Shown here: positions 8,601-13,711 of the stretch, piece after piece
Numbering within the stretch: position 1 is the first letter of the stretch
Layout: every line of letters begins with the position of its first letter
NCBI RefSeq assembly: GCF_000188695.1
Contig: NW_004754931.1
Coordinates: 127,427 to 148,941, forward strand
Reading direction: 5' to 3'
Length of the DNA stretch: 21,515 nt
DNA from: Salpingoeca rosetta
Lineage: Eukaryota > Opisthokonta > Choanoflagellata > Craspedida > Salpingoecidae
Translations under genes and position numbers: made by a program
Notes under the pieces: generated by a model
Told to the model about the DNA's origin: nothing
Database searches by the model: none
The model's input: the letters and a program-made list of their open reading frames with translations, nothing else

Positions 8601-9372
8601 TCAAGGGTGGTACGGTTGTCCCAGCGGCATCTGAATCTGGTCGGCGTTCTGTTGGAGATGAGCGACGATGGTGGCCATGGAGTTGTGCGGTGCAGTGCCG
8701 CGTTGCCCGTTGATCAGGAAGCCGTCAGCAAGAATGTCGACTGTTGTTGTTTGGACCCCGGGGGGCACGGACGGTGGAATATGGGATAATTTGGGGGTGA
8801 GAAGTTGGGAAAGTGTAGGCTCATCGTGAAGAGGACTCAGGATGAAAACTCAGCACATTAAGTGCACACATGCACACATGCACACATGCACACACAAGCA
8901 AACATGCATCGAAGCAACACGCGGGCAAAACCCACAGCAAACTGCACGGAGCGACGCACCTTTGTGATGTACGAAGCGATGATCCACCTTCATGGTGATG
9001 ATGAACTGTGCCGGCTCGTTAGGCTTCGTTCTGACAAGGAACGTTCCTGAAACACAAAACCAACACACAAACACAGAACGTTGGTGCGCTAATGAGTGCC
9101 TGCAAGCAAGAACAACGATAAAGCAATCACACGCAATAAAAGCAGAACGTACATACGCATGCACACGCGAACTTACGCTCACACTTACACTTAAGATCAC
9201 AATCACAATCACAATCACAATCACAATCACAATCACATAAACACACGCACGCACGCACGCACACCCGACACTAACCGTGAGGATGAGAAGCCAGCATAGA
9301 CTCGGCCTTGTCGCGATCAATGGCACCGACGTTGTACGTGTCCGATGGGGGCTGCTGTGGTGGCGGGGCGAG
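8601..9372 (-). other. C-terminal SH2 domain of the first receptor (three exons)
   Basis: The spliced sequence starts YNVGAIDRDKAESML, matching the SH2 beta-A/alpha-A start with its Arg. It continues GTFLVRTK, the FLVR phosphotyrosine-pocket motif (Arg about 1260), then RFVHHK with the beta-D His. It ends LADGFLINGQRG...HNSMATIVAHLQ, the second helix. Both introns inside the domain are phase 1 (after Gly and before Val). The pocket residues are intact, so it should bind phosphotyrosine. Confidence 0.88.
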
Positions 9373-12300: not shown

Positions 12301-13711
12301 ACTCGGTGTCGCGAGTCACTTCGCACGCGTTGTCCACCTCAAACCCAAGGTCGCACGTGGAGCACGGCTCGCACGCGGTCTGCCCAGGCTCATCCTGGAA
12401 CGTCGTGCCGGGAACACATGGCGTCCGCTCGCCGTTCTGGCACACAATGCCAGCCGGGCACTCCTGCTCCTTTAGGTACAGGTCGATGGTCGAGAACGCG
12501 GTTGTGCCTGCGTACGGCGTCGGCGTGGCGCTCGCGTTGTACACATCAATCTGCACAAACTCGGATGAGCTGGTGCTGAAGTAGCCTGGCTGCGTGGTGT
12601 TGCACTCGCTCTGGCCCTCCCGCGCACCAAAGTACTGCGGTCCCTCGCACACAAACGCAAAGGCTGGGCCAGGGTCGTCGCCGCTGCCGGGGCAGTAGAA
12701 CCCAGTAGGACATGCGTCGCACTCGCGGTCGTTGGTCGCGTCTCCAAGGTCCGTCGCAAACTCTCCTGCAGGACAGCTCTTCTTCGCCACACACGTGCCC
12801 ATGTCGAGATACAGGTTCTCCTTGCATTTGCATGCACTGCCAATGCACTCTGTGTCAGGATCAGCACAGTAATCACCACCCAGCGAGCAATGATGTACAC
12901 ATCCGACACCGCTTTCGTATATCAGCCTTGGGTTCACGGTAGTGTTGCATTTGCATGCGGGGTCACCGATGACGGACTGGCTTGGGTCGCAGTATGCGTT
13001 CTCGCCCACGCACGCGCCCTCAGGGCACAGCGGCTGGCAGTCAAACATGTGGCCTGCGGGCGATGCAGCGCCCTCGTCGCACACGCACTGGCCCGATGTC
13101 GTGTTGCAGGTGGCGTAGTCACCGCAGCTAGTGGTGGCGTCGCAGGTGTAGGTGTAGGTGTAGGTGAAGACGGCCGGGAACTGTGCGTCGGTTGGTTCGT
13201 TGGGCTTGCCTTGTGCGGTGCAGCTGAAGGTGGTGTTGGCCTGGTTGAAGGTGCAGTTGAGTGGGGAGAACGTGTTCTCGACGTAAGGGATGAGGGAACT
13301 CGCACTTGAGGGGAACCGCCACGTGCCAAACTGGATGGTGACCTCTTGATCGGCGTCGAGTGTTACGACTGGGTCGCCTCCTCCATATCCCCATGCGAGC
13401 GGCCAGTGAATGGGGTTTATCCAGGGCTCTTCGACCTGCCATGGGGAAAGTTCGTCGACGCTTGGGTTGAGTCTGTGGCGGTCACCGGACTGTTCGCCGA
13501 CGAGCAGTGCGACTGTCGGGTTCATGCGCTTATCGTCGGTTGCCTTGAAGTCCGAGGGGTAGGTGGCGGTGTCATCGAACGTGGCGTGGAATCGCACCAG
13601 CGTCAGGACACCCGTCACTGTGGTCTCTGCAGTCACCCTGTGAACTTGTGGAGTGCCAAGGGCGACAATCAATACGCACACGGCAATCTGAAATGCCTGC
13701 AGGCACGCCAT
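8601..13711 (-). CDS. Single-pass receptor with EGF and HYR-like ectodomain and cytoplasmic SH2 domain
   Basis: Exons in transcript order are 13711-11378, 11065-9734, 9372-9276, 9046-8960 and 8740-8601, giving 1329 residues plus TGA. Every junction is GT-AG and phase-matched. The Met at 13711 was chosen because a hydrophobic signal peptide (MACLQAFQIAVCVLIVALG) follows it. Domains in order: an N-terminal region of unknown fold; a cysteine-rich region (about 190-470); two calcium-binding EGF modules (about 472-554); HYR/DUF5011-like beta modules (about 556-907); an unrecognised juxtamembrane region; a transmembrane helix (about 1100-1124); a tail with YDN, YAQV and YTN motifs; and an SH2 domain (about 1235-1329). 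No kinase or phosphatase domain is visible. It is probably a cell-surface receptor recruited into tyrosine-phosphate signalling. The ligand is unknown. The acceptor of the third exon could lie up to 21 bases further downstream in frame. Confidence 0.85.
9195..9237. repeat. (ATCACA)n hexanucleotide repeat, receptor intron
   Basis: About seven tandem hexamers lie in the intron 9047-9275, with an ACGC run just after them. Confidence 0.85.
9478..9579. repeat. (AGAC)n tetranucleotide array, receptor intron
   Basis: About 25 AGAC units lie in the intron 9373-9733, upstream of the SH2 exons in transcript order. A second AGAC array occurs in the F-box gene at about 17739-17808. Confidence 0.92.
10037..10109 (-). 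other. Transmembrane helix of the first receptor
   Basis: About 24 uninterrupted hydrophobic residues run from AAIVLIVVGLIL to FIIAV and are followed by RCGRRP. The basic flank marks the cytoplasmic side, which puts the SH2 domain inside the cell and the EGF modules outside. Confidence 0.9.
10182..10704. repeat. 523-bp block identical to 15893-16415 (copy in the first receptor)
   Basis: Reading the two blocks side by side at a fixed offset of 5711 shows no mismatch. The block encodes the juxtamembrane ectodomain from about VRVVVREPESK to RLSKDD. Identity ends abruptly just before the transmembrane helix, where the two genes diverge strongly. Confidence 0.95.
12050..12295 (-). other. Tandem calcium-binding EGF modules of the first receptor
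   Basis: Two modules begin DIDEC and NINEC, the calcium-binding consensus. Each has six cysteines, the N-x-T-x-G-S-(F/Y)-x-C core and a G-F-x-G-(N/D)-G end. They follow a region rich in CPxG...C motifs resembling the ephrin-receptor-like GCC2/GCC3 repeats. Such modules give a rigid, calcium-dependent extracellular stalk. Confidence 0.88.

Follow-up and report, generated by a model that had tools for sequence, protein, structure and literature searches.

Predicted kinase-less membrane receptors with their own SH2 domain in Salpingoeca rosetta, and sister genes that share an ectodomain

The window analyzed here, 21,515 nucleotides from the choanoflagellate Salpingoeca rosetta (assembly GCF_000188695.1, contig NW_004754931.1, positions 127,427 to 148,941 of the forward strand), holds two tandem genes for predicted membrane receptors, A and B, which lie between a helicase gene and a probable F-box gene (Table 1). 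Gene A occupies the minus strand from 13711 to 8601, and its five exons can be joined on the DNA into a single open frame of 1329 amino acids through four introns, all of them (4/4) GT-AG, in phases 0, 0, 1 and 1. The translation exceeds the Pfam cut-offs for TNFR_c6 (residues 432-471), for EGF_3 and EGF_CA (two stretches each, corresponding to two calcium-type modules in an EGF region at about 473-549), for HYR (residues 822-894) and for SH2 (PF00017, residues 1235-1311, 34.7 bits against a cut-off of 21, E = 2e-8). The N-terminal region encoded by exon 1 has no Pfam match, and a single-sequence AlphaFold2 model of residues 28-200 has a mean predicted local distance difference test score (pLDDT) of 43.9. 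The single predicted helix is the hydropathy maximum of the protein (Kyte-Doolittle 3.3); it is followed by basic residues and by a tail of 114 amino acids with the motifs YDNS, YANS, YDTI, YAQV and YTN(L). The original prediction, made from the letters of the DNA, had described a kinase-less membrane protein carrying its own SH2 domain. Its exon coordinates and domain calls (EGF, HYR, helix and SH2 in one polypeptide) hold, with SH2, EGF_CA and HYR all above the cut-offs of the profile search, and the DNA has no stop before 9372 in the joined frame: the tail frame reaches one (open reading frame end at 9695) only if intron 9373-9733 is retained. The signal peptide that it had also placed in this frame corresponds to a hydrophobic leader, but was predicted by eye only. 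The TNFR module, the sister gene B and the published precedents discussed below had been left unnamed. A (CAGA)n microsatellite lies at 9480-9580, inside the intron that separates the tail exon from the first exon of the SH2 domain.

Table 1 Coordinates of the features discussed in the text (positions in the window unless a locus is named)
Feature	Position	Strand	Content
Gene A exon 1	11378..13711	-	residues 1-778: ATG, hydrophobic leader, TNFR_c6, two EGF modules; GT donor
Gene A exon 2	9734..11065	-	HYR, stalk, predicted transmembrane helix (~1098-1121), tyrosine tail
Gene A exon 3	9276..9372	-	SH2 start (YNVGAIDRDKAESML...)
Gene A exon 4	8960..9046	-	TFLVR...FVHHK, FLVR strand up to beta-D His
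Gene A exon 5	8601..8740	-	SH2 end and stop codon
Gene B long exon, visible part	15304..16413	-	ectodomain end, predicted transmembrane helix, tail with eight tyrosines
Gene B SH2 exon 1	15033..15111	-	frame joining; SH2 profile match
Gene B SH2 exon 2	14738..14827	-	TYLVR...FVHHK
Gene B SH2 exon 3	14448..14587	-	ends with stop codon
A segment compared with B	A 10148..10704 / B 15859-16415	-	DNA 98.7% identical, 7 differences in 557 bases
A segment compared with gene C	A 10173..13863 / L063:1448-5156	-	DNA 94.3% identical over 3.7 kb
DEAD/DEAH helicase exons	269-8150	+	DEAD 64 bits in 269-637
Probable F-box and WD40-type gene exons	17121-20596	-	F-box-like over cut-off in 20126-20596

A Pfam scan with E up to 0.1 lists neither a kinase nor a phosphatase family in A or B. 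Gene A has in common with the receptor tyrosine kinases an ectodomain, a single span and a tyrosine-bearing tail, but it has no kinase domain, and this identity is ruled out for both genes by the same scan. The open DNA frame, the Pfam matches and the lack of a kinase family confirm, at the level of the DNA, that gene A encodes a predicted kinase-less membrane receptor with its own C-terminal SH2 domain. The phosphotyrosine pocket of this domain also appears as first described: its FLVR Arg and beta-D His, and in addition the alpha-A Arg, are intact in A and B when aligned with Abl and with nine other SH2 domains, the FLVR Arg of A facing the Arg of FLVR in Abl and its beta-D His facing the His of the Abl motif HYR. 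Among solved structures, the nearest in sequence are the Abl SH2 domains and Abl-like synthetic SH2 domains (E ~1e-7).

Gene B is a tandem sister that lies upstream of A in the same direction (minus strand, 16413-14448). Four of its exons are visible, and its 5' part falls in or beyond an assembly gap of 100 N at 16416-16515. Its SH2 domain (PF00017) scores 36.6 bits against the cut-off of 21, its tail is longer than that of A (157 amino acids), and its three introns (phases 0, 1 and 1) have the same positions relative to SH2 as the last three of A. The similarity of the two genes is very uneven along their length. Over the visible end of the ectodomain 180/180 amino acids are identical, with a synonymous divergence (dS) of 0.03, and the DNA identity stops shortly before the helix. 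The helix and tail agree at 48/129 positions (dS = 1.10, nonsynonymous divergence (dN) = 0.75) and the SH2 domains at 53/95 (dN = 0.30, dS = 1.16), the values of a domain under constraint. Judged by these divergences, the high identity of the ectodomains next to diverged tails and SH2 domains means that the duplication of the cytoplasmic halves, whose SH2 is constrained, is old and that the heads were probably made alike recently, for which gene conversion or unequal exchange would be the simplest explanation.

The same ectodomain occurs a third time in the genome. A search with the 1079 amino acids of the A ectodomain (E 0.001) gave 29 matches, a lower bound since 43 of the 51 candidates were scored, and among them a single further long relative, gene C, on C7. 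The stretch of its DNA that is identical to this degree with A begins some 150 bp ahead of the ATG, includes intron 1 and stops just short of the helix, after which blastn gives repeat-type matches only. Among gap-free aligned bases, 233/276 agree upstream, 2200/2323 in exon 1 and 876/911 in the ectodomain part of exon 2. Intron 1 agrees at 309/312 aligned bases, gaps aside, which is higher than exon 1, and gene conversion would explain this patchy agreement. The predicted helix of C (hydropathy 3.38) differs from that of A, and it is followed, after a tentatively placed intron, by a tail exon (L063:5673-6533) that reads WNPVFYDTV, VYESI, SYDHT and QYDIV and in which neither a Pfam family nor an SH2 domain was seen. 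The whole-genome SH2 search (E 0.001) found no match near 1.26 Mb on C7, although the same search also missed the split SH2 domains of A and B.

Receptors of this class are not restricted to the window. In six further loci, one open exon encodes both a predicted helix, with a hydropathy of 2.99-3.62, and a C-terminal SH2 that exceeds the Pfam cut-off, so that the existence of the class requires no inference from splicing. They comprise C39 (six TNFR_c6 stretches, two SH2), C15 (cadherin repeats, helix, one SH2), three proteins of the DUF5011/Ig-like type (C28 and C13b with one SH2 each, C16 with two) and C13a, where the whole protein reaches 25.2 bits for SH2, over the cut-off, with no single stretch passing E 0.01 and two SH2-like regions by eye. 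C13a was identified as the locus of the described protein PTSG_05573 because YDVP-type peptide motifs matched there: a degenerate DNA pattern for EMYDVPRS and DMYDVPRN had five matches within 650 bases of one contig and one more nearby on the opposite strand, a reversed control pattern had 0 matches, and the frame of the locus contains three EMYDVPRS and two DMYDVPRN adjoining two SH2-type matches. A probable seventh locus, C21, has a helix, a tail with 26 tyrosines and an end that resembles SH2, with no Pfam family at E 0.01. Pfam scans of these seven open reading frames list no kinase or phosphatase domain. Counting A and B, the class amounts to nine genes with 12 SH2-type domains, which is a lower bound: the census of 73 SH2-type matches (70 + 3, A and B not among them), in 61 clusters, read helices in long single exons or selected loci only and misses multi-exon receptors like A. 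Some of the SH2 domains counted below as others may likewise sit in membrane proteins whose helix lies in another exon.

Two of these loci repeat what is seen in A and B. C13a and C13b lie on opposite strands with about 10 kb between them (L075 and L077; C13:666200-684800), and their DNA is 97.6% identical over 2.2 kb, a stretch that stops approximately 38 residues short of the helix. The part of the ectodomain that was compared agrees at 325/341 amino acids (dS = 0.04), the stalk, helix and tail at 155/492 (dS = 2.0) and the first SH2 at 45/93 (dS = 1.34, dN = 0.55). Since the pattern recurs in an unrelated ectodomain, these divergences argue that a shared head with a divergent tail is a recurrent property of this receptor class rather than a chance product of one gap.

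The relationships of the receptor SH2 domains were studied in a tree of 28 sequences, rooted at the midpoint, in which 17/25 inner branches are open. Receptor-linked domains group together in 11/12 cases, with 1/16 others (fork support 85/87, open); accordingly, the domains of A and B are found with 9/10 of the other receptor-linked ones and this single other, and the first SH2 of C13a also falls within the set. The receptor label requires 3 changes on the tree against 9.3 in shuffles, of which 0/500 were as low, while 0/200 bootstrap trees have a single label change. This distribution suggests a single origin of the receptor SH2 domains. The SH2 of C15 groups with the others on a long branch, and the cadherin type that it represents possibly had a separate origin. 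The one other domain found in the receptor group belongs to a PH-SH2-type adaptor, L009 (C9:1000998-1001195), where SH2 is in frame with a PH-like stretch recognized by eye and carries His-His; it could be a soluble offshoot of the receptor SH2 domains or their source. This dipeptide, at beta-D4/D5, is present in 10/12 receptor-linked SH2 domains against 2/18 others (Fisher p = 1e-4, relatedness uncorrected), a count that draws on 30 of the 70 genome SH2 matches (18 others with the strand covered, 8 others uncovered and 4 receptor-linked). Its value as a receptor hallmark is diminished by the second SH2 of a soluble-looking open reading frame with three SH2 domains (L020), outside the 18, that also reads His-His.

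The tails themselves are biased in composition. Across the nine proteins, V, I, L, P or M stands at +3 of 59/85 tail tyrosines against 23/147 in the visible parts of the ectodomains, counts in which repeats and the overlap between A and B are not independent. The corresponding figures are 3/5 for A and 7/8 for B, of which YxxP accounts for 0/5 and 2/8 (YTIP and YDNP) respectively. Three tail motifs, SIYAQV, STYAHV and VFYDTV, resemble by eye the consensus of the immunoreceptor tyrosine-based inhibitory motif. In 7/9 receptors, NPx(F/Y/A) lies no more than 70 residues from the helix, in A and B as NPIA; it is absent near the helix in C13b and distant in C13a. The stricter NPx(F/Y) occurs soon after the helix in L072, L073 (C15), L074, L076 and L046 (C21), and also in the tail of gene C. 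Such a sequence could be a PTB or endocytic site; an NPVpY peptide targets the PTB domain of HMTK1, according to the portions of PMC3082566 consulted.

Membrane SH2 receptors as a kind are already known. The original prediction, which named no animal family with this arrangement, was too strong in so far as the arrangement has precedents, both in the six loci described above and in print from Salpingoeca, Monosiga and Choanoeca. In the accessible text of PMC5043372, S. rosetta PTSG_05573 and the Monosiga proteins A9VAL3 and A9V449 are membrane proteins with C-terminal SH2-like domains; PTSG_05573 has 10 YxxP motifs, 5/10 of them covered by the EMYDVPRS and DMYDVPRN peptide types. Like these proteins, A and B have one predicted membrane helix followed by a C-terminal SH2 and no kinase or phosphatase. 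Unlike them, with their YxxP repeats and DUF5011, TSP1 or growth-factor-receptor ectodomains, gene A combines TNFR, EGF and HYR modules with YxN and YxxV/I/L sites, and the same text mentions no relative with a shared ectodomain. Excerpts of two further papers report a Protocadherin-domain protein of Choanoeca perplexa with a transmembrane and an intracellular SH2 region (PMC6040629) and a cadherin-SH2 membrane protein in Monosiga (model 11339, PMC3082566), which share with C15 the order of adhesion-type domain, membrane span and SH2 and differ from A in being cadherin-like outside. The parts seen of PMC8662651, PMC3507883, PMC4758236 and PMC4053784 contain no further case. In the literature surveyed, supplementary files being outside its scope and relatives in other choanoflagellates being known from papers only, there is no account of A or B, of the set with a shared ectodomain or of a lineage formed by these SH2 domains. 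What looks new is that receptors whose inner parts differ share their ectodomains.

The paired immune receptors of vertebrates (SIRP, KIR, PIR and Siglec families), which bind separate SH2 proteins, combine nearly identical ectodomains with cytoplasmic tails that differ. The sets A/B/C and C13a/C13b resemble them in this respect, as far as the visible end of the ectodomain goes in the case of B, but differ in that A and B have the SH2 domain built in, and no homology is claimed. Several scenarios may explain what such receptors do. The one that we favor, with a probability of about one half, is that A, B and C are paired receptors in which a common ligand-binding head is joined to different cytoplasmic outputs and in which the SH2 domain would clamp the tails of sister receptors in trans. 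It starts from what the DNA shows, namely the gene structures, their domains, the common ectodomains, the constraint on SH2 and the biased tail motifs; the binding partner and the output, like expression, topology and phosphorylation, are inferred from the genes. In this scenario, a ligand or a neighboring cell would gather A, B, C or similar receptors, their common heads suggesting a common ligand or self-adhesion. A separate tyrosine kinase, since none is built into A or B, would then phosphorylate the YxxV/I/L/P sites of the tails, and the SH2 of A or B could engage a phosphorylated tail in trans, either of its own kind or of C. Such binding would stabilize the cluster and leave sites for soluble SH2 or PTB proteins. 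Binding in trans is favored because the heads are shared, no kinase is built in, the SH2 pocket is conserved and the ligands nearest to it in a cluster would be the A, B and C tails with their many YxxV/I/L sites. The suggestion of the original prediction that a sister's tail may be the SH2 ligand gains support at the gene level from B and C, which share the ectodomain, its mechanism remaining conjectural. Only tentatively would this be extended to a whole paired-receptor system. One ectodomain, kept alike among copies (in A and C together with upstream DNA and intron 1), would be carried by SH2-reader (A and B) or tail-only (C) receptors whose mixing by ligand creates a reader-substrate clamp, within a lineage comprising seven SH2 receptors of S. 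rosetta, or eight if C21 is included, whose SH2 is mostly His-His and among which head-sharing with tail divergence arose at least twice.

Several points weigh against the sister-tail clamp. The three genes are predicted from DNA, and the SH2 ligand could be an unrelated protein. The beta-D5 His of this SH2 differs from the usual aromatic residue. Exon 1 of gene C lacks one base present in A, through a sequencing error or because the gene has decayed; beyond the tail exon, the absence of SH2 was checked by the whole-genome search only. The identity of A and B adjoins an assembly gap and could partly be a misassembly; nevertheless, seven differences in 557 bases speak against a plain copy. Finally, C39 has 0 tyrosines between helix and first SH2 and C15 has 2, so that not every member of the class can bind its own juxtamembrane tail.

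This last point also bears on an alternative that we consider quite unlikely, in which the SH2 would bind the phosphorylated tail of its own molecule in cis, mask its docking sites as in Src-type regulation and be released by the ligand. The presence of SH2 and a tyrosine tail in one polypeptide is compatible with such an autoinhibited switch, and in both A and B the tail is probably long enough for it. Yet, with the tyrosine counts of C39 and C15, cis binding to the juxtamembrane tail could not be general. Alternatively, the SH2 could dock A and B on an activated receptor tyrosine kinase or another phosphoprotein, making them co-receptors or membrane adaptors whose tails recruit Crk- or Grb2-like proteins. 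S. rosetta has 93 tyrosine kinases according to the text available of PMC4054682, and YDVP phosphopeptides of PTSG_05573 bind a Monosiga Crk-type SH2 in that of PMC5043372. Nevertheless, no kinase with an A-type ectodomain was found among the at least 29 matches at E 0.001, six of which are A, B and C and 23 of which cover the EGF region only, in genes not read for kinases, and recruitment of this sort seems rather doubtful. It is very improbable that the receptor is an artifact of the gene model, with SH2 exons taken from another gene or wrong joins. The models do come from the DNA, and the join of exons 1 and 2 is a weak point: its donor (GTTCGT) is poor and it rests on phase, because the gap truncates B at this place and C is almost a copy of A. 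However, B has the same exon order and phases with a constrained SH2, the same architecture exists in single exons elsewhere in the genome, and the next coding frames past the 3' end of A are, by eye, on the opposite strand. A separate SH2 gene or a chance join is thus rejected by gene B and the single-exon relatives.

Animals as a rule divide the receptor, the kinase and the SH2 reader among different proteins. A close animal relative with the reader built into the receptor would represent another wiring of phosphotyrosine signaling to the cell surface, and tails swapped under one conserved head, in two gene sets, amount to a natural experiment on how the output of a receptor is set by its cytoplasmic modules. 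As S. rosetta is genome-editable and colony-forming (PMC7314544, text seen in part), the role of these receptors can be tested.

The two genes that flank A and B in the window are of other kinds. The probable F-box gene shows weak beta-propeller matches, all below the cut-off, in 17121-17471 and 17673-18041. In the helicase gene, Helicase_C stays below the cut-off in 3798-4031 and 7715-8158 has no family; the gene contains long CA and trinucleotide microsatellite tracts and appears to be convergent on the 3' end of gene A.
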